From Dermatophagoides farinae (Eukaryota; Arthropoda; Arachnida; Sarcoptiformes; Pyroglyphidae), in contig NC_134680.1 in the NCBI RefSeq assembly GCF_024713945.1, forward strand, positions 4,426,001-4,490,000: a stretch of DNA of 64,000 bases, given 5' to 3'. Below, piece after piece: positions 1-23,092 of this stretch. The notes beneath the pieces were generated by a model that saw only the letters and a list, made by a program, of their open reading frames with translations, had not been told where the DNA came from and searched no databases. The number at the start of each line of letters is the position of its first letter. The stretch's first letter is position 1. The position numbers and the translations under genes were made by a program.

Positions 1-3000
1 ATCAAATGAAAAAAAAAATAGAAAAAACCAAATAACGGGAGTATCCAACAGTGCGATTATCCTATCCTATAGCAGTGAAACAAGTGAAAGTAAGCAAGCA
101 ACAGCGAATATATCTGAATGGTAATGATGATGATGATGATGATGATGATAATGGCTATGGCGGGTAATAGAAAAATTGTAAGTATAAGCTTCATCATTTA
201 TTGAAACAAATAATCCATTTTCATATCCCGTTTTCATTTTTCGTCGTCGTCGTTGTCGTCGGGTTCAACAGATAGATGTGCGTGTATCTGTGTGTAATAA
301 TCGTTTTATTTTTCTTTGGTCATTTTTGGTAAAGTTACGTTATTTTTTTTCGATTTAATGTTTCTACATAGCTTATTTGTGTGTTGTATCGTTTTTTTTT
401 TGTTTGTTTTTTTTTGGTGGTTCCGTTTTCCGTTCACAATATATTCTGTTTCGTGTATTTCCATTATATGTTTGATGTGTTGTGGTTGTATGTATGATTT
501 ACATCACCATTCAACTTTAAACTTTATCATGAATGTCACGTGAATGTGTCATGATTATGATCTGGTTATGTGTATGTATGTGTGTGTGTAATCACAATAA
601 TCGTCGTCGCCATCATCATCATCATCGTTACCGGATTTATTCGAATTCGAATATTTTTTTTTTTCGTTTAAATTTCTTGGAATTATTCTTTTGGTAAGTA
701 TCCTTTCACCAATAATCTTTCAGATTTTTTTTCCATTTTTTCTTAAAAATTAGGTTATCGATGAAATATTGAAAATCTTTTCGAATACCACTGAATTTTT
801 GTTCGGATGATTCTTGATTATTATAAGATGATGATAATGAATGCTGGTGGTGGTGGTGGTTGTGGTGGACCGATAGTGTGTATTCTCAATCTAGTAACAG
901 TGGATAAACAAAAAATAAAAATAATTAAATAATCAAAAATGGATTGTTATTGCTTGAGAATACACGTCATCGATCTTAAACCAGTTGCAACATATTCGTT
1001 TATTAATTTATCTATTACTCATCATCATCATCATCACGATCACATTCAACAACAACAGAATAATCAATCAAATCGATTGATACAATCAAAATCATCATCA
1101 TCGTCATCACCATGAGAGGATAATCCACCAATAGATAGAAATCACAATAATCCACAACTGATGATGTTATGAAATGTTTGATTGATTTATCAATCATCGT
1201 TGATGCTAACAACAAATTTCATTCACATTAATTCCGGTATGTCATTGATTTAATCCCAATGATTTGTCATTTTTTTCCCATTCTCTCCTTTTCTTTTATC
1301 TCTTGGGACAATTTTTTTCATATTCTCATCCATCGATTTATGTGTTTGTATGTTCTGTTTATTTATTTATTTTTTTTTTTTTTTGATTATGAAAATTTTT
1401 TCCTCTTTCTGTGTCGATAAATCGATAAATCGAATAATTTTTTTTTTTTTGATTTCGATTTACATACACCTCCCATGAAGGTTGCTGCTTTTTTTTATCA
1501 TCTTTCTCCTTTCCCATTTGGGATTCGAAATTTTCAAATCAAAAAAAAAAAAAAAAAAAAAAAATTCGAATCCACTCTCAAATCAAATCAAGAGCTTATG
1601 ATTTCAATAAAAAACAAAAAAAAATTGTTAATAACTGAAAGCGGAAAGCATGACCGAAAAAAAATCACTTTTCCAGGTACCAGAAAAAATTTTTTTTTTT
1701 TTTCGATGACCTTTATCTTTATTGGATTTAATTTTTTTTTGTTTGTTTGAAGTCTTTTTTATCTGTCAACAAAATATCAACTTTACAATGGCTCAATTGA
1801 TTGGTCAAAAAAGATTAAATGTAAATGTGGAATTGATCGATTGTCAAACATTGAATCGAATCGAATAGTAGAGATGAATGAATGAAAAATTCATCATTAT
1901 GAATACAAAACACTACTGTTGAGTAAACAACAACAACTACAACAACAGTAACAAAAGAAAAACTTTCCAAATGATGATGATGATGATAATGATGGAGTTG
2001 AAATTGATCTGAACATTTTCAATTGTAAACAAAAAAAAATGTATTATCATTGTCAATTTTTATAGCCAGTAATGATTGCAATGATGATGGACAACACCCT
2101 GGAATTTTTTTTCCCATTTCTGAATCGCTTGGAATACTAATCTCGATACAAATGATGATCATTTGTAAGATTTTTTTTTCAAAAAATTTTCCATTGAGAA
2201 ATCTACTAATCAAAGATAAAAATTCCAAGAAAAAAAAATCCAGTCAAAGCCACCAGTCATTTTAACTAATTGCCACCATCATCATCATCAACAACAACAA
2301 CTACAACAATAATCATGATGATCGTCAGGATAACAATGAAATTTAAATGGTTAAATATTCTAATTAGCTTGTTTTTCTTTTCTATGCAATGTATGTATTA
2401 TCCTACTTGAAAAAAGAATGAAATGTTTGAATGAAAATTTGAATGGAATTCGAATTTTTTTCTTTTACTTTTAATGTTTGAATTCAAATAACGGATTATT
2501 GTATATACCATCCTCAAATGGCAATGATGATGAATCGAAGAAACAAAAAAAAAGCAATTAGCGTGTACAATGATGTGTTTGTGTGTGTCATCTTTTCGCC
2601 CAAAAAAAACCCTAAAATAATAAGAAAAACAAAAACTGATTGATTTAGATTGATTCTCATCATCATCGTTTTGTTAATGAATGAAATACGGTTTATGTTT
2701 GTACAGAAAAAAAAGAACAAGAAAAAAAAATTCTAACTCTCTCTCTCTCTCTCTCTTTCGCTTTCATTCTTACTTTCTATCTATATTTATGTCAAAGTAA
2801 AAATAACCTTTTCATAATAATAATAATAAGAGCACGTATCTTATTTGATTCTTTAAAAGAAACGAAACGAATGAAAAAAAAATTGAAGTACAATCCAACA
2901 ACTTCATCATCATCATCATCATCATCATCGTCATCATTTGTAGGATTTAATCAAATCACATTTTGCCCAAAATCAGATCAAACCCCATCAATCTAAGAAT

Positions 3001-4430
3001 TTTTTTTTTGGTTTTTGTGATTCAATTCCAAATAAAGTTCCAATACGAACGAATACTACCGATCTGCTGTTATACGATGATGAGCTAATTTAATTCATTT
3101 ACAATATTCAATTCTCTCTCTCTCTCTGCAATTTATTGATTCTGTATGATGGTGATGGGTGGTTGGATGGGGGCGATGAAATGATGAAAAACCACCATCA
3201 CCACCCCCACCACAAAAAAAAGAGTTCTACAATCCAAGGTAATGATTATAAACGCACCAAATAATATCCAGCTGAGAGATGGAAAGATAGCAAGCAAGTA
3301 CAACAACAGATTCGACGACATTTTGAACAACAACAACAAATCTCACTGTTTAATAATTCTAAATTTTATGATGATTAGGTGTTTGTGATCATATCATCGA
3401 TGATGAATCGAAAAAAAAAGAATTTTGTGGCTGTTTTAATCATCACATCACCATCGGTTCAATATCTATTATCCAGGTTTTTTTTTATTGATGAAGATGA
3501 CGATGATATATGCACACTTTAATCACTACATATAATCAAGTAATATATCACACATTCAACCGATAATCAGATTTTTTTTACTTGATTTTCATTCTTTTTT
3601 TCATTTTCATTTTATTGTCATTTATTAGTTAAAAAGTACACACAGGCACACACGCGTTCATATTGAATCATGGCATCCTAAATACCAAATTTTCCAACTG
3701 CGAAATGAACCATCAATTAGTTTTTTTTCCGTTGTTGTTGTTGTTGTTGTTGGGGTGTTTGTTTAAGTCAACAACCAACCAACCAACCAGCCAAACCACA
3801 AGATATTGTTGGATTCTTTCTTTTTTTTTATTTCATTCGATTCGATTCGATTTTTTTTTTTTTTTTGCTCTAAACACACACGAAACGCCAACAATTTGAC
3901 ATTCGAATCAAAATGAATCATTGAAAGGAACGTTTTTGATTATTTTATTACAGCATCATCATCATCATCATCATAATAATAATAGGTTTGTGAGATATAG
4001 TGTGACAAACTTTGTTGCTTATCATCACATACTCACATAATAATAATAATAATAAAGTGTGTGTGTGTATGTGTGTGTGAATGGCATCAAAGATTTCAAT
4101 TTTCTATTAGATTAAATCTGGTTTACTACTAAATTTGGATATCATTCGTTTTGTTTGTGTGTGGAGGGTAATAGTAAGTAGTGGGGAGGCTGGCTGGTTC
4201 ATTTGATGAAATTTTCATCATTCATTCATAAAGTATGGTGTGTGGGATATTGATGATGCCATAAACAATTGTTTGAATGACAGATTTAGAAATTTTTTTT
4301 TCTACTGCTCATTTCATTTTCATTTCAATTGACAATTTGTCATTATTAAATCATGATGATGATGATGATGATGATATCGATTGATTAAACAAATGATTGA
4401 TTTATAAGACCACAGGTCATAAATGAAAAT
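1..4430. other. Gene-free, simple-repeat-rich DNA
   Basis: No supportable gene was found on either strand. The stretch holds many GAT/ATC runs (for example near 121-150 and 2905-2932), poly(T) and poly(A) tracts, a poly(A) run near 1541-1563, a (CT)n run near 2737-2756 and a (GTT)n run near 3734-3750. Open frames here are short, T-rich or A-rich, often begin without ATG, and show no recognisable domain. It may hold the 3' end or an intron of a gene outside the window, but nothing shows this. Confidence 0.6.
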
Positions 4431-13500: not shown

Positions 13501-16500
13501 GGTTCTGAATCATTGAAAATTGAACGTCAAGAAAAAGAATTGATTGAATCACGTTTGATTGACATATTGAATACATTATCGATTGATAATAATTACGAAA
13601 TAGCAATGAAGATGTCAAATATTATTGAAAAATTGGTTGAACGTTTTACCGAACCAATACGGTTATATTCGCTGTTAACCAATATATTACAATCACAGAA
13701 TTTCGATGTCATCGCACAGATAATTCGTAATTTTGTTCATGTATTTACATCCATGTTGAGTTCATCACAAATTACTGCTCAGGTATCACTTTTTATTATT
13801 TGAAATTTTTATCTAATGTAAAATTTATTCATTTTATCATCATAGACGGATACGATTATTGAATATGTGGTTGATACATTCATGCGTTCGGAAACGTATC
13901 TAAGTACGAAACCAAAATGGCGTCTACATATCCAATATTTTGATGTCATGTTTCGTCTATCACGTATTATACCGGTTGATGTTGTTAAACGATTAATAAT
14001 TCCACGATTATTATTACGATTTAGTACAACGGTTTGTATTTGTGATTTTTTGTTATTTAATCAAATTATTTATTTATATCATTTAATAGCGTCCAATACC
14101 TTGTCGACAAGCAATTGCTCGTTGTCTTATAATGGTCTATTTGGAAAATTTTGCTCAACATGATTTTGAAAAGTATTGTTCCAATAATGGTCAACAATCG
14201 ACAGTGAACACTGCCAATAATAGCACACGCACTAGCCCATCTAATCAAATGATGACATCTTACCCTTTACGTTTTGATGATTTATCACAAACTGCCTATT
14301 TATCATTTGATTTATTTAATTGGTTAGATCGTAATCTAAAACAATCGCAACGATATCAGGATCGTCAAATATATGTAGATATGTTAGCCATATTTGTACG
14401 GCTTTTATTTCGTGATTCAATTGAATGGCGCGAATCATTGCCAAATCATTATCTGGTCGATCTAGTAGAACATTGTCCATCGTTAATGGATTGGTCAGAA
14501 TTATCATATCGATTCTCGAAACGATATCGACTGAATCTTAAGGAATTACATTCATCACAATTTTTTGCAATGTTAATGATACAACGTTATCGATTATTAC
14601 ATCAGCTCACCGAATTAGCCACTAAAGATCGTGTGTCAACCATTCGTACTAGTGCTTGTATTGTCCTTTATACATTGTTACAATGTGCTAATCATTGGGT
14701 GGTGAATCACTTACATCAAATACCAATCACATCGATCAATGATTGTTGCATTCCTAAAACTAATATGACTGTTGGTCTTAACATTTCTGCTGGTGGTGGT
14801 AGTGATAGTGATCATTCACATCATCAACTGACTGAGATGATAATGGATTATTATGATACATATATGGACAACGCTACGATTATATCGGATCACAATGATC
14901 TAAATAGCTATAATTCAATAGCTTATTTTACATCCGAACAGCTATATCTACGCCGGCAATATGAACAGGATCGTATTGTATTGGAAGAATTACATAAGGT
15001 GTATACATTAGTCGATGATATAAGACTGGATTTTAGCCTTAATTATTATCAATTACGTAATAAACGAAAAAAACCACGTAAACAACTACAACAACGTGAT
15101 GAAATGATTCCATCGCCTACGCCTTCAATAACATCAATTGATTCAAGTGTAATCGAATTGATAAACGAATTGATGTTATCGGTTGAGAATGATGTGAACT
15201 CTTCTTATCTAGTGGCGAAGGAAAAGGATGATGGTGGTATTTTAAAACAAGTAATAGAACGTACACCTGAATTATTACCAGAAGAAGATGAAGGTATTGA
15301 TCTAGTTAATGATTCATCGGTATTAATTACCGATGATTCAGCTACATCCTCGACATTATCATCTCCAACAATCGATACAACCACAACATCATCATTGGAC
15401 ACTGCCAATAATCAATCAGCGGAGGCTGAATCGCCATCATCATCATCATCACCGTCGATTACAAGCCGTGGATTGATTTATCTTGCCAACGTTGATGAAT
15501 TGGTTGCTGATTCGAATGAATTGAGTTCTATAAGCCATACAACAGTTGCAGAATCTTCATTGCCAACTGGTAATAATAGAAATAGCCTTAACAGCATTAA
15601 ATCTTCAAATCTCAATTCATTACATTGTAGTCCCAAAAAACGAAAATCCCCGAAACATCATGAACAACAAACTATAAATCATAGATCGGCATCGAATTTA
15701 TCAATTGAAAAACATCTAAATACCATCATCAAACATAATAGTAACATTCAGCAGCCAAATGTGCCATCAATGATTTCTGCCAAAACAAATTCATCATCTG
15801 TGAATAAATCTGGTTATAAAGGGAACCATCAAGGTATTATTCCTTGCCATAATAATAATAAACTCGGTGTTTCATCATCTTCAAAAAAGAAGACATCGAT
15901 TCTCACTAGCCATCATCATCAACAACAATCAAATCGTAATAATAATGGTATTGCTTTGCTGCCAACACCAACAAACACTACTAATGTTGCTCATTGTGGT
16001 GGATCAAAAGTTCCGGTATTAAGTAATCGTAGCAATAATAATTATCATCATCAGACTACAGCTAACAACAACAGAGCTTTATTACAACATGGATCAAACA
16101 TAACGAATAATAATAATAATATAACACCTAACACTGCCAATTGTACTGCATCATCAATGTCGCAACCGTCATCACCTTATCCTGGATATTGTTTTCGAAT
16201 CGTTTATCCACAAACTGGACGATCACTTTCAAACAATATTCAAGCAACAAATTCTTCGGCTCAATTTTATTCAGGTTCAATTGGACAAGCAGCTCATGTT
16301 CCGCATCACAATATACCGTCATCATTATCTAGTCCTGGTATTAATAATAATAATAATAATGATAGCGTATATCAACAACAACAACAACACTATAATCCTC
16401 ATAATTATCATCATAATTTACAGAATAAAATTCCAGCAAAAATTAATTCAGCTACAATACCATATAGAGCTATTTCACATCCCCATCATCAGCATCAAAA

Positions 16501-17292
16501 TCATCATCCACAGGCTGGCCTTTTACATCAGCCATCACAAACAAAATCATCATCATCAAAATGGCATAATCATAATTGTAAGTAATGTATGTGTTTGTGT
16601 GTTTATGAATCTTTATAATGTGATCGTGTTTTTTCTTTATATTTTGCTTAGCTTCCAACTTAACTATGTATCAACAACATCATCAACGATCAATGTCGGT
16701 ACCGCCACCATCAGTCAATACCGGTCATACATCATCATCATCATCATCGAATATTCATCATTATTCTGCACAAAATCCATCAATGATGATGAATGTGAAG
16801 AAAAAATTATTCAAAAATTCTGGTTCAACAAATTCATCATCATCGGCTGTAAAAATTGGTGGTAGTTATCAGTCGAATACAAACATTAGCAATCATAATA
16901 ATCATCGTCATCATCAATCAAATGTTTTGAATAGTAATGTAATTAACATTAACATAATAAGTTCCTCTTCATCATCATCCAATTCCTCACCTATTGCATC
17001 GAATTCAAAAAATAATTTTGTTCGTGTTAAAAAATTTAAAAATCGAACAAATAATGAATCATCATCATCATCATTGATTAAATCCAATAATGGTAATAAA
17101 TTGTTATTGAATAATAACATGAAAAACATAATGAACAAAAATGAATCAATGATGGAAACCGATGCTGATGATGATCATAAAAATAATAATAATAATGATG
17201 ATGATGATGATGACGGCAATGATGAAACATCAATAGTTTGCAATACAACAACAAATGAATTACAACCAGATTCATCAACTATTGATGAATGA
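10570..17292 (+). CDS. Large HEAT-repeat protein, PPP4R4-like PP4 regulatory subunit
   Basis: Exons 10570-11221, 11285-13173, 13270-13782, 13846-14031, 14090-16577 and 16652-17292 join in frame at GT-AG sites to give about 2,120 aa. The first ATG at 10570 was chosen; a TTG just before it is in frame. The N-terminal ~200 residues are acidic poly-Asp/Thr. HEAT-like helices follow (around TIETKVMPLLSEL, VRFTFCFVLANYARRV). The block spanning exons 4-5 (KWRLHIQYFDVMFRLSRIIP, then IPCRQAIARCLMVYLENF) and ELATKDRVSTIRTSA matches the order and pattern of human PPP4R4 as I remember it, including the W-R-x-H start and the conserved Leu/Val spacing. A charged coiled-coil-like part (QYEQDRIVLEELHKVY) precedes a ~700-residue Ser/Asn/His-rich tail. 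PPP4R4 is a scaffold for the PP4 phosphatase catalytic subunit. The protein is over twice the usual ~870 aa because of low-complexity insertions. PPP4R1 or another HEAT protein is the main alternative. Confidence 0.62.
11222..11284 (+). other. 63-nt intron with no in-frame stop
   Basis: A GTAAAT donor and TTTTGTAG acceptor bound a 63-nt segment exactly 21 codons long. It contains no stop in the reading frame, so retention would insert 21 mostly Phe/Ile/Leu residues without breaking the protein. Its base composition (T-rich) and length match the other short introns of this gene (58, 63, 74 and 96 nt), so I treat it as an intron. Confidence 0.7.

Positions 17293-18603: not shown

Positions 18604-18604
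<1 letters not shown>

Positions 18605-18676
<72 letters not shown>
18605..18676. repeat. (CT)36 microsatellite
   Basis: An uninterrupted run of 36 CT units, the longest dinucleotide tract seen in this window. It lies about 65 bp outside the left target-site duplication of the copia element. Confidence 0.97.
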
Positions 18677-18740: not shown

Positions 18741-18745
18741 GTTAC
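18741..18745. repeat. Target-site duplication, left copy
   Basis: GTTAC directly abuts the left LTR, and the same five bases follow the right LTR at 23088-23092. A 5-bp duplication is normal for copia-type integrases. The preceding base of the internal region next to the other LTR is also C, so a 4-bp reading (GTTA) is possible but less likely. Confidence 0.85.
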
Positions 18746-18888
18746 TATTAAAGAATTAGTCAAACTTGAATAACAATATTTTAATTAATTAAATTCAAAG
18801 CAAATAAGCTTCCAAATATATATGAATATTAATTTAAATTCAATTACAATTACGATTGTATGATTGTTGTTAAAAACCAACTTCAACA
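18746..18888 (-). repeat. 3' LTR of the copia element
   Basis: 143 bp, identical to the copy at 22945-23087. On the element strand it begins TGTTGAAGTTGG and ends CTTTAATA. It is AT-rich, and the ORF stop codon (18883-18885) lies inside it. Confidence 0.95.
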
Positions 18889-21800
18889 CTCCCCCGTTTT
18901 GACAAAATCATACAATGGCAAATTCTCGACAAAAGATATAAGATTCTTTCGACTTAACGGTTTTGTTAAAACGTCCGCCAACTGTGCATCGGAAGATATC
19001 CACTGTATAGACATCAAACCACGCTGGATTAAATCACGAACCATTAGAAACTTAATGTTGATATGTCGCAATTTTAGAGAAATATTCTCAGCCAATAGTT
19101 GTTTCACCGCAGCTTGATTATCACAATTAATGACTGGTTTATCGATTAGGATTTCCAAATTTTCGAGAACATTTAAGACGAAACGGACATCCTTTGAACA
19201 AACAGACACAGAGATGAATTCGGCTTCTGCTGTATTGTCGATGACGCATTTCTGCAATTTTGTTTTCCATATAATCGGGCCACCATATAAAACTATATGA
19301 CCAGTTGTTGTTCGATTATTTTCTTTTTCTCCTGCTAAATCAGCATCAGAATAAGCTACACATTTCAGATTATCACCACCAAGTATAATCCCATAATGTC
19401 TAGTGCCAGATAAATATCGCCACACACGTTTCAACATCTTAACATGAATATCTGTTGTTTTATCAGCAAAACGTGCCAACAAAGAAACACAAAATGCTAT
19501 ATCTGGTCTCGTTTTGCAAGAAAGATATAACAAGGCACCAATTGCTTGTCTATAAGGGTAAGCCATATTCGATGACGATTGTTGATACGGATCGATTCCA
19601 GCAGCAAGAGGAGTATCAACTTTTCTGCTATCAGCCATATTAAACATTTTCAATTTTCCAATGAGATAATCATATTGATAAAGCATGATCGTCTTCGATA
19701 AATGATTTCTAGTATAATTAATGCCAAGATATTTACAAGAATCGACCGAACGTATCTCAAAGATCTGACCAATTTCTTCAAATAAACTTTTCACTTTTCC
19801 AGGTATATTCGAAGCCAAAAGAGCATCGTCGACGTATAAACATAACATCGTAAATTCATTGTCCTTCTTAATAAAATATAAACAAGGATCAAATGTTGAT
19901 GAACGAAATCCCAAAGATATAATTGCTTCATCAAACTTCCGATTCCAGCTACGTGGACTTTGTCGAAGACCATATAAACCTTTCTTCAACAGACAAACAC
20001 GTCCAGTTTTATCATCATATCCTAACGGTTGATCGATATATACAGTTTCATAAATATCACCATTGAGAAAAGCATTGGAACAATCGAACTGTATTAAATC
20101 CATATCCCAAGATGCCACTAGCGAAAAGAATAAACGAATCACATCCATTTGAGCAACAGGAGCATAAATATCTAAAGAATCTGAGTATTGCTCAAAACCA
20201 CGAGCCACCAAACGGGCTTTGTATCTTCCATCGTCCTTGATTGTAAAGATCCACTTCACAGTTATAATCGGTTCATTATCTGGTTTATCAACTAACTGCC
20301 ATGTCTGATGTTTAATTAATTGATTATATTCTTTATCCATTGCTTCTCGCCATTTTTCTGATTCATCACTATTAATAGCCTCATTGAACGTAGATGGTTC
20401 ATAGCGTGCCACACACACACCAACAATTGAACGACCAGGAAGAACACGTAATGACTGAAGACGTTCTTCACTTTGTTGGAATAAACGATTTTTAGCACCA
20501 ATTGGTCGGCCAGGACCACGAAAATTAGAATCAGGTTGATTTGGAACATCATCATCACGAGAATCAACAAAAGAAATAACAGTGTTTGATTCACTTTCAC
20601 AATTGTTTATAGTCGATTTGTTGACATCGAAACCAATGGGCTGAACAACACATTTAGGTTTTTCATCGAAATCTACAGATGAACATAATTCAACACGACG
20701 TGCACCAGAAACATAAACACGATATATTGTTTGACCTTCGTATCCAATCATTCGAACAAACTTTGATTTAGCATCAAATTTGTTATTTCGATTTTTATTC
20801 AAAGCTTGGCCTTCCGAACCAAAAATACGAAGATTTGAGACATCAGGTTTTATACCAAAATACTTTTCATACGGTATTTCATTACGAGAATTCAAAACCA
20901 GATTCATCAAATAAGCCGAACAATTAACAGCTTCATCCCATAAAAAACGGGGTAGATCAGTCGATAATAACATTGAAATTGCGTGATCCATCAGTGTACG
21001 CATAGCACGTTCGCATCGACCATTCTGTTGTGGTGTATTTACAGATGCTTTTTCATGAATAATTCCATGACCACTTAAATAATTCTGAAACAACTCAGAA
21101 CGAAATTCTGTGCCCATGTCAGTTCGAATGCATAAAACGTTATTTCCGGTTTCCAGTTTAATTTCATTGACAATACACTTGAACTTATCAAGTGTTTGAT
21201 CACGAGACTTCATAAAAGCCACCTTCACAAACCTCGATCTATGATCAACAGCCAAAAGGAAATATCGATTACCATGGATAGAAACATCAGTGTAACCACC
21301 AATGTCCAAATGCAACTTCGAACCAGGCAAAATATGTGGATTATCAGATTCAATATGATGCGAAATATCTGTCAACTTTCCAATCTTACATGGCGTACAA
21401 TAATCAATATCATTGTTTAAACTATTCGGTATGCCATCAACTAGTTTCTGTTTGAACATTTTACCAATTGTATTCGTTGAAAAATGACCAAATCTTTCAT
21501 GCCATTTAGCCATCGAATTTACAGCAACATTCACAATATTTTTCGAAGAAGAAACATCAATTCTAATTCGTAATTCAATAATGTTCAGGTATTCTGTGCT
21601 CCATTCACCAATAAGAATCGGAACTTCTTTGTGATAAATCGTAATACCATCATTGTTTGTCACACTTCTAACATTCTCCCGTCTACAAATTTTACCAATC
21701 GCAATAAGATTGAATGGTTGGCCAGCTACGTAATAGACATCTCTTATTACCATTGGAACCCAACTTTTTCCATTAAACAATTGACATTTCATATCACCTT

Positions 21801-22821
21801 GTTCAGGACCATTGACCACACCACTCATCGTTATAATTTGATGACTTGTTTTACGAATATTAGATAACAACGATCTATCGTTCACAATATGATTGGACGC
21901 ACCACAATCAGCTAAAAACTTCACCGAAGACACAGAGACCAAAGACAACGAAGATGACACATTCGAAGATAACTGATTCATATGACAATCAATATCAGAA
22001 ATCTTAACAACAGCACTCAAACTTGCAAGTTTATTTTCATTGCTCGGTTTGACTTCATTGTTCTGTTGACCACTTTTAGAATCGTTCATTTTCTTTCGGC
22101 AAAATTTTTCAATATGACCTTTAATTTTACAATAATAGCAAGTTCCATTAAATTTCTTCTTGTTCAACAATGTAGAAGAATTATTCGATTTAATTGTTGC
22201 GGCCAAAGACGTATTTTGAGCAGAAAATTTCAAATTTTTCTCTCTCTCGAATCTCAATAATTCGGATTCAAACTGTTTATCACTCATATAATCAGTTTCT
22301 GATCTTCCGCCATTATAGATGTCAACCATTTTGCACATCTCATCATATTCAGCGGGTAAAATAGCTCGAACTTTTGAATTAATAAAATAACTTGGCAGCT
22401 TAATATTTTTATCAGCAAAAGCTGCAAATAATTGCCGTAACTTAGCAAATAAACCTTGAATCGAGCCTTCAAACTTGATTGTATTGAAATCACGTAATAT
22501 CTCCCAAGCAGACTTAGCACCTGGACCACGATATTTTCTGTCCAATTCACTAATCATTTCTTTAGGATTATTACATTCCATAATACTTTCTAAATCTTCA
22601 TTAGAAATCGACAATCGTATGATATTTTTAACCTTTGCGATACGACCTTTTTCTTCTTTTGTTATAGCTACATCGCCATCATTACGTATGTACTTAAAAT
22701 CTTTAACAAAATCATCGAGGTCTAGCGCTTCCAGAGCATCCAATAGAGTAACATACCATTGTCTATATGTTACTTCGCCCAGTTTAAGGGTCTTAACAAC
22801 ATTAAATTCTTTATTGGACAT
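18883..22821 (-). CDS. Copia gag-pol polyprotein, single intact ORF
   Basis: 1,312 codons from the ATG at 22821 (upstream in-frame codons lack ATG) to TGA at 18885-18883. Domains in order: a gag region; a CCHC zinc knuckle CYYCKIKGHIEKFC (228-241); an aspartic protease with the DCGASNHIV motif (D305); a GAG-pre-integrase zinc-binding region (WHERFGHFS ... CTPCKIGK); the integrase core with the DDE residues in LHLDIGGY, IRTDMGTEF and NTPQQNGRCERA; reverse transcriptase with AFLNGDIYETVY, GLYGLRQSPRSW and the catalytic LYVDDALLAS (Y996-D999); then RNase H beginning AYSDADLAG and including NTAEAEF. All catalytic signatures I can check are present and no frameshift or stop separates gag from pol, so gag must be over-produced by another route than frameshifting. 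The ORF runs over the polypurine tract and ends six bases inside the 3' LTR. Confidence 0.96.
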   Translation of the reverse strand: MSNKEFNVVKTLKLGEVTYRQWYVTLLDALEALDLDDFVKDFKYIRNDGDVAITKEEKGRIAKVKNIIRLSISNEDLESIMECNNPKEMISELDRKYRGPGAKSAWEILRDFNTIKFEGSIQGLFAKLRQLFAAFADKNIKLPSYFINSKVRAILPAEYDEMCKMVDIYNGGRSETDYMSDKQFESELLRFEREKNLKFSAQNTSLAATIKSNNSSTLLNKKKFNGTCYYCKIKGHIEKFCRKKMNDSKSGQQNNEVKPSNENKLASLSAVVKISDIDCHMNQLSSNVSSSLSLVSVSSVKFLADCGASNHIVNDRSLLSNIRKTSHQIITMSGVVNGPEQGDMKCQLFNGKSWVPMVIRDVYYVAGQPFNLIAIGKICRRENVRSVTNNDGITIYHKEVPILIGEWSTEYLNIIELRIRIDVSSSKNIVNVAVNSMAKWHERFGHFSTNTIGKMFKQKLVDGIPNSLNNDIDYCTPCKIGKLTDISHHIESDNPHILPGSKLHLDIGGYTDVSIHGNRYFLLAVDHRSRFVKVAFMKSRDQTLDKFKCIVNEIKLETGNNVLCIRTDMGTEFRSELFQNYLSGHGIIHEKASVNTPQQNGRCERAMRTLMDHAISMLLSTDLPRFLWDEAVNCSAYLMNLVLNSRNEIPYEKYFGIKPDVSNLRIFGSEGQALNKNRNNKFDAKSKFVRMIGYEGQTIYRVYVSGARRVELCSSVDFDEKPKCVVQPIGFDVNKSTINNCESESNTVISFVDSRDDDVPNQPDSNFRGPGRPIGAKNRLFQQSEERLQSLRVLPGRSIVGVCVARYEPSTFNEAINSDESEKWREAMDKEYNQLIKHQTWQLVDKPDNEPIITVKWIFTIKDDGRYKARLVARGFEQYSDSLDIYAPVAQMDVIRLFFSLVASWDMDLIQFDCSNAFLNGDIYETVYIDQPLGYDDKTGRVCLLKKGLYGLRQSPRSWNRKFDEAIISLGFRSSTFDPCLYFIKKDNEFTMLCLYVDDALLASNIPGKVKSLFEEIGQIFEIRSVDSCKYLGINYTRNHLSKTIMLYQYDYLIGKLKMFNMADSRKVDTPLAAGIDPYQQSSSNMAYPYRQAIGALLYLSCKTRPDIAFCVSLLARFADKTTDIHVKMLKRVWRYLSGTRHYGIILGGDNLKCVAYSDADLAGEKENNRTTTGHIVLYGGPIIWKTKLQKCVIDNTAEAEFISVSVCSKDVRFVLNVLENLEILIDKPVINCDNQAAVKQLLAENISLKLRHINIKFLMVRDLIQRGLMSIQWISSDAQLADVLTKPLSRKNLISFVENLPLYDFVKTGEC
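18889..18901 (-). other. Polypurine tract of the copia element
   Basis: On the element strand the purine-rich AAAACGGGGGAG directly precedes the 3' LTR, the position at which plus-strand DNA synthesis is primed. It is also coding: it forms part of the last codons of the pol ORF. Confidence 0.85.
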
Positions 22822-22924
22822 TGTCGTAAAAATAAATATCGATACGGTAAAAATATGATGATAACACAAGAGTAAAAATAACAAGAATGACTAAGCACAA
22901 AGAAAACGAAACGTTAATTCGTAA

Positions 22925-22944
22925 GCAATACTAGGCCCATAACC
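22925..22944 (-). other. Primer-binding site matching initiator tRNA-Met anticodon arm
   Basis: Directly inside the 5' LTR the element strand reads GGTTATGGGCC followed by TAGTATTGC. The first 11 bases are complementary to the anticodon loop and stem of eukaryotic initiator tRNA-Met (GGCCCATAACC), not to a tRNA 3' end. This is the known arrangement for Drosophila copia and yeast Ty5, which prime from a cleaved half-tRNA. The tRNA sequence is from memory. Confidence 0.75.
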
Positions 22945-23087
22945 TATTAAAGAATTAGTCAAACTTGAATAACAATATTTTAATTAATTAAATTCAAAGC
23001 AAATAAGCTTCCAAATATATATGAATATTAATTTAAATTCAATTACAATTACGATTGTATGATTGTTGTTAAAAACCAACTTCAACA
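22945..23087 (-). repeat. 5' LTR of the copia element
   Basis: 143 bp, identical to 18746-18888, flanked outside by GTTAC. As the 5' LTR in minus orientation it should hold the element promoter; the AT-rich sequence offers several TATA-like strings, and I cannot choose one. Confidence 0.95.
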
Positions 23088-23092
23088 GTTAC
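23088..23092. repeat. Target-site duplication, right copy
   Basis: GTTAC, the partner of 18741-18745. Removing the element and one copy restores a continuous empty site. Confidence 0.85.

Follow-up and report, generated by a model that had tools for sequence, protein, structure and literature searches.

The window analysed here, a stretch of 64,000 nucleotides from the American house dust mite, Dermatophagoides farinae, carries on its minus strand, at positions 18746-23087, a 4,342-bp element of the Ty1/copia group. Its two long terminal repeats (LTRs; 18746-18888 and 22945-23087) match at 143 of 143 bases, the 144-base repeat reported by the repeat finder including an additional C that precedes both LTRs. 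Between them, a gag-pol frame extends from an ATG at 22821 to a stop at 18883 and comprises 1,312 codons with no internal stop, the last codon and the stop coming from the 3' LTR, as its first six bases (TGTTGA). In the assembly searched (62,435,336 bases in 22 contigs), one other full-length copy was found among the LTR matches listed, at C5:1035199-1039543. The element in the window is referred to below as copy 1, and this second one as copy 2. The features of copy 1, with positions counted in the window, are as follows.

18741-18745, no strand: target-site duplication GTTAC, left copy
18746-18888, minus strand: 3' LTR in element orientation, 143 bp, TGTTG...AATA
18889-18900, minus strand: polypurine tract AAAACGGGGGAG, within the coding frame
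18883-22821, minus strand: gag-pol, 1,312 codons (gag, CCHC knuckle, protease with D-C-G, integrase, reverse transcriptase, RNase H)
22052-22696 (element 392-1036), minus strand: gag stretch to which the 17 coding differences between copies 1 and 2 are confined
22925-22944, minus strand: primer-binding site, pairing with the 5' half of a predicted transfer RNA, tRNA-Met(CAT)
22945-23087, minus strand: 5' LTR in element orientation, same sequence as the 3' LTR
23088-23092, no strand: target-site duplication GTTAC, right copy

Coding capacity and primer site

A preliminary description of this DNA had recognised a copia retrotransposon in a mite genome, with identical 143-bp LTRs, a perfect 5-bp target duplication, an uninterrupted 1,312-codon gag-pol and intact primer and polypurine sites, and on all of these points it was borne out. 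When four overlapping pieces of the gag-pol translation were run against Pfam, matches to Retrotran_gag_2, Pol_BBD, gag_pre-integrs, rve, SH3_retrovirus and RVT_2 were obtained, and the order of the domains (gag, beta-barrel, pre-integrase, integrase, SH3-like, RVT_2) is copia-like. RVT_2 scored 154.5 bits on the piece holding most of the domain (cut-off 31.6); Retrotran_gag_2 (23.6 bits, cut-off 27) and rve (29.8 bits, cut-off 32.6) remained below their cut-offs. Neither a protease nor an RNase H was named by Pfam in the four pieces, and these two were assigned by motif alone, from residues that we take to be their signatures. The translation includes a CCHC knuckle at 228, the protease motif D305-C-G, the integrase residues H441/H446/C475/C478 and D506, D568 and E604, with 35 residues between the last two (DD35E), YVDD at 996, and the RNase H residues D1159/E1199/D1234. 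The Ty1/copia order gag-protease-integrase-reverse transcriptase-RNase H is thus found together with an RVT_2-type reverse transcriptase, protease and RNase H being placed by motif only.

The further claim that all catalytic motifs are present held for the motifs as such and failed for two of their letters, as the protease has D-C-G in place of D-[ST]-G, a usual but not a defining feature of the aspartic protease in Ty1/copia elements, and the HID motif near the RNase H end reads HIN. Among the best 120 of 1,384 protein relatives, the protease motif could be located in 59, with S as the middle residue in 39, T in 10, N in 6, C in 3 and G in 1. Two of the three D-C-G relatives are D. farinae records of the window element itself and the third is P0003, a protein of 1,319 amino acids from an ENA contig of 4,883 bases. 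A HID-type motif was found in 72 of the 120, with D in 52 and N in 5. Because P0003, with 72% identity along the full length of the protein, shares D-C-G and HIN with the window element, these variants look like old features of the lineage and not damage.

The primer-binding site forms 11 Watson-Crick pairs ending at tRNA nucleotide 39, followed by seven pairs, some wobble and some Watson-Crick, that reach position 18. Its partner is the 3' end of the 5' half (nucleotides 1-39) of a tRNA-Met(CAT) predicted on C19, a small contig of 282,697 bases. Two initiator-tRNA sequence patterns had no match in the genome; a shorter one had 14 matches, compared with 10 in a reversed control, and tRNA-Met was predicted at one of ten loci scanned. 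The predicted tRNA-Met is taken here as the putative initiator. Copia-like priming by half a tRNA is called hemivirus-type.

Further copies and their mosaic structure

The search for other copies and for solo LTRs that had been proposed in the preliminary description gave at least ten LTR matches, and recovered copy 2, a hybrid deletion derivative at C5:642475 (locus L010) and truncated pieces. Of the ten matches listed, the full-length copies account for four and the hybrid for two, in each case with their LTRs; the others belong to the 5' end of a truncated relative (C6:4896824), a pol relic (C6:1128154) and a deleted piece that includes gag (C3:5480403), or are a 57-base fragment (C3:1051195). 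No clear solo LTR was present among these ten matches, a number that is a lower bound; a search with the LTR of the hybrid added one 83-base fragment (C3:6735736), which was left out of the solo-LTR tally. The two LTRs of copy 2 are identical to each other, and it is flanked by a duplication of its own, ATTTT. The window element is structurally intact, and the existence of a second full-length copy with a separate target duplication shows that it is no isolated remnant. On C6, a copia relic includes a 131-bp insert (L039:2131-2261) whose flanks are 99% and 95% identical to the window element, and which had no match in the window or in the other fetched loci, two loci overlapping L039 being excluded.

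Direct LTRs and a 5-bp target duplication were found in all three insertions examined (the window, C5:1035199 and C5:642475). As had been described, the LTRs of this family begin and end with TG...TA in place of TG...CA, which is a usual but not a defining feature of Ty1/copia elements. The base preceding TATT differs between copy 2 and the window copy, which fixes the termini as TG...TA, and the hybrid, with its own CTTTT duplication, also ends in TA. Three copia elements with the same primer-site core (L056, L066 and L068), each 2-3 kb from a reverse transcriptase match, have CA beside the primer site, as do L059 and L064, which have no such match within 10 kb; in all five, the CA is read from the letters adjoining the primer site and not from located LTR pairs. 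The TA terminus looks like a trait of the subfamily to which the window element belongs.

Copies 1 and 2 differ in 26 alignment columns, of which three lie in each LTR, three are length changes in the 5' untranslated region (UTR) and 17 are substitutions. All 17 fall within element 392-1036 (codons 42-257), whereas the 3,216 bp of element 1037-4252 are identical. By codon, 10 synonymous and 7 non-synonymous changes are found in codons 42-257 and none in 258-1312, so that synonymous divergence is 6.6% over codons 1-257 and zero beyond; the probability that all 10 synonymous changes land in the first 257 codons is 4e-8. The two copies thus represent two gag versions with one and the same pol.

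Comparison with the truncated relative at C6:4896824 divides the gag region further. Over element 267-620, copy 2 differs from this relative at 1 of 354 positions and copy 1 at 11 of 354, and over element 621-800 the order is reversed, with 5 of 180 differences for copy 2 and 2 of 180 for copy 1. When copies 1 and 2, the hybrid and the C6 relative were tested together over element 144-1564, 29 sites that divide the sequences two against two formed three runs, and none of 20,000 shuffles gave as few, although some of the sites are packed at 939-963 and may reflect one event, so that the shuffle treats too many sites as independent. The six sites that pair copy 1 and the hybrid against copy 2 and the C6 relative are all contiguous (413-707), the packed ones being among the other 23.

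Both gag versions also occur in protein records of D. farinae. DERF_005358, the best match among proteins and identical to the window copy at 1,305 of 1,312 residues, has all seven copy 2 residues, and HUG17_3659 has all seven copy 1 residues. The two are recorded as hypothetical proteins, and parts of the frame are missing from the HUG17 model, much as predicted introns would remove them. They are encoded on contigs of 9,006,469 and 9,845,874 bases, respectively, and hence on neither C4 (7.1 Mb) nor C5 (5.4 Mb). The mosaic would therefore not seem to be an artefact of one assembly alone.

The hybrid (L010:976-3625) is about 2.65 kb long, and its LTRs are alike at 138 of 139 positions. Aligned with the window copy, its LTR shows 17 differences in 132 letters and 18 gap columns (76.7% identity with gaps counted), its 5' UTR 1 difference in 123 letters and 8 gap columns (93.1%), and its gag-protease region 33 differences in 1,297 letters. 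The contrast between LTR and 5' UTR, judged by letters, is significant (Fisher P 1e-4). The last LTR mismatch lies at most five bases from the border between LTR and primer site, and the first 28 bases beyond that border are identical. Identity across gag-protease, in windows of up to 200 bases, is 96.9-99.5%, with one window at 93.0%. Past about codon 432-439, the hybrid jumps to pol pieces with 80-84% DNA identity that match codons 701-835 and 1134-1312 and are in frame with gag, giving a frame of 787 codons from stop to stop. Gag, protease and the RNase H end are retained; the integrase core and most of the reverse transcriptase are missing.

The relative at C6:4896824 has an LTR that matches that of the hybrid at 137 of 139 positions and shows the same contrast with the window copy, 19 of 134 letters differing in the LTR and 2 of 123 in the 5' UTR (P 1.6e-4). 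The points at which it and the hybrid depart from the element are no more than about ten bases apart. As LTR type, contrast and departure point are shared, the deleted form may itself have moved, a conclusion that these likenesses suggest but do not prove.

The preliminary description had also called the insertion very recent. The LTRs are indeed without a difference, but they comprise only 143 bp, and the dating that they allow is loose. No differences at 143 sites give a 95% upper bound of 0.021 on distance, equivalent to about 1.0-3.7 million generations at the substitution rates of 1e-8 to 2.8e-9 used for dating. The identical 3,216-bp tract of copies 1 and 2 gives a bound of 0.0009, or about 47,000-166,000 generations, on their last shared sequence. 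The insertion date is only loosely bounded by the LTRs, and the tighter bound from the copy pair applies to the shared sequence.

Probable template switching and its alternatives

The window copy is an intact Ty1/copia element, one of two full-length copies found in the assembly, and it probably belongs to a family that is copied through RNA, has formed mosaics by template switching and includes a hybrid dependent on enzymes supplied in trans. The element would copy itself via RNA, with reverse transcription probably primed by the 5' half of the putative initiator tRNA-Met, and its insertion would produce the 5-bp target duplications. The sequence patterns suggest that one particle takes up different RNAs of the family, between which the reverse transcriptase switches. 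Such switching could generate both copies with separate gag and pol histories and a hybrid deletion derivative that would need the enzymes of elements like the window copy. The change of identity at the LTR/primer-site border is the pattern expected of strand transfer at the primer site if the LTR RNA and the gag RNA were separate molecules.

Several points weigh against this interpretation. The life cycle and the template switching are read from the sequence of an assembly alone, and present mobility is a candidate trait. The sole LTR substitution between copies 1 and 2 (element 54) lies in the would-be U3 (unique 3') region and is not explained by one template switch in gag. The 8 gap columns in the 5' UTR of the hybrid, mostly in T runs, shrink the contrast with its LTR to 93.1% versus 76.7%. 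Finally, the D-C-G protease and the HIN motif are unusual among the 120 relatives, and the activity of the enzymes is not certain.

The mosaics could instead stem from ectopic gene conversion among integrated DNA copies, with no switching of templates inside particles. This explanation is considered unlikely, though it is the most serious of those weighed here: other near-identical copia pairs of the genome also show clustered differences, some as short diverged tracts in otherwise identical sequence, and conversion produces these too. However, the hybrid and the C6 relative both change identity at the LTR/primer-site border, which is where LTR and internal sequence are joined in reverse transcription and where conversion would have no reason to stop; as the two may share this border by descent, that evidence counts once. 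Conversion also has to accommodate LTRs that, in each full-length copy, are identical to one another and distinct from those of the other copy.

It is very unlikely that the identical 3.2 kb is an artefact of assembly or short-read polishing in which one copy was overwritten with the other. According to the available text of the assembly paper (PMC11074847), the assembly was corrected with Illumina data. Such correction is able to homogenise repeats. Against this, two D. farinae proteins from contigs other than C4 and C5 carry the two gag versions between them, evidence that is at the protein level only, and one of the pair DERF_005358/HUG17_3659 matches the window copy at all 1,055 residues past codon 257. 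Least probable of all is that the patchwork of the hybrid reflects constraint and not exchange, gag being conserved more than LTR and pol as coding sequence generally evolves more slowly than LTRs, since the non-coding 5' UTR is itself conserved (1/123 letters differing beside 17/132 in the LTR) and it is gag that distinguishes copies 1 and 2, at synonymous sites too.

Copia elements elsewhere in the genome and in other organisms

RVT_2 had 45 matches genome-wide, 40 of them above the Pfam cut-off, and for 19 of these 40 the frame around the match has 1,200 codons or more. Many copia elements, from several families and with complete frames, are present in this 62-Mb genome. From 21 similar copia locus pairs listed, 12 were tested for an uneven spread of differences, and four or more differences were present in 10 of these. 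Counted in tenths of the alignment, the spread was uneven in all 10 (P < 0.05 with uniform placement as the null), P being below 0.01 in 8; by the longest difference-free stretch, 8 of 10 were uneven, the others being L020/L021 (P 0.08) and L027/L030 (P 0.18). The pairs are not independent and the null is uniform placement under equal constraint, so the uneven spread is a lead only, one that suggests that exchange may occur in other copia families too. The differences between near-identical copies are packed in short tracts in L015/L016 (where a single tenth of the alignment holds 26 of 37), L023/L025, L027/L028 and L037/L038 (3.7-kb loci).

The repeat table in the available text of the assembly paper gives 8 LTR elements totalling 370 bp (PMC11074847), whereas no fewer than 19 copia frames reach 1,200 codons, and D. 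farinae records label the window polyprotein a hypothetical protein. This amounts to a gap in annotation. D. farinae is reported, in the portion of PMC5805368 available, to be without Piwi proteins and to control its transposons by small interfering RNAs (siRNAs), and many complete copia frames with visible recombination make it a natural place to ask how well the siRNA substitute works. A broader view, held tentatively and judged somewhat short of probable, is that in a mite whose Piwi-interacting RNA pathway has been lost the copia elements form a freely recombining pool, in which template switching would shuffle gag, pol and LTRs between subfamilies and refresh intact low-copy families. If so, such a pool would yield trans-dependent gag-protease-RNase H hybrids, and trees of single elements and LTR ages would mislead.

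In the surroundings of the insertion, a long CT dinucleotide tract (window 18604-18676) lies about 65 bp from the insertion site. An open reading frame of 817 amino acids (14132-16585, plus strand), with no Pfam match, ends 2.2 kb from the element; its product has the same sequence as a protein from a contig of 4,433 bases, and DERP_009814 of D. pteronyssinus is 72% identical to it over 36%. Nine open reading frames of the window compared with Pfam gave one weak match, below the cut-off. Of seven homologues of the group 2 allergens in the genome, two were set against solved structures: the better one matched Der p 2 and Der f 2 (108 and 106 bits), the other nothing but a protein of Niemann-Pick type, and neither was identified as a true Der f 2 gene.

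A literature search of titles and abstract openings, with most subscription journals outside its reach, found no description of copia elements of D. farinae; the word copia occurs a single time in the paper on the Sarcoptes draft genome (PMC4641413). Among the best 120 of 1,384 protein relatives, the nearest named one from outside D. farinae is a Pol-like protein of Sarcoptes scabiei (P0004), which is 61% identical over the reverse transcriptase stretch in a record of 738 amino acids, shorter than a whole gag-pol; P0003 is nearer. No sign of horizontal transfer was seen among these 120 relatives, with no tree built. Within the same genome, the element at C9:3429365 (L029) has 75% DNA identity over 2.9 kb of pol, a 1,365-codon frame, the same primer-site core and D-C-G, but has CA and not TA beside its primer site (L068).

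Like the window element, copia of Drosophila makes 5-bp duplications and has a single frame; its primer, a 5' half of initiator tRNA-Met that ends at nucleotide 39, is one that the window element may share. Unlike the window element, it has TG...CA termini and a D-S-G protease. Onsen of Arabidopsis is a further element of copia type. Copies of this family recombine with one another as they transpose, some of the events being placed at the first template switch, in the LTR, and recombination has also been inferred for yeast, Drosophila and plant elements, as set out in the available text of PMC5668417. For Onsen, recombination was seen in new insertions during bursts, whereas the D. farinae case is inferred from an animal assembly. 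The TG...TA termini have a counterpart in the plant element AcCOPIA1 of onion, according to the part of PMC5659011 available. The window element is of a known and ordinary kind, within a family in which the traces of recombination are clear.

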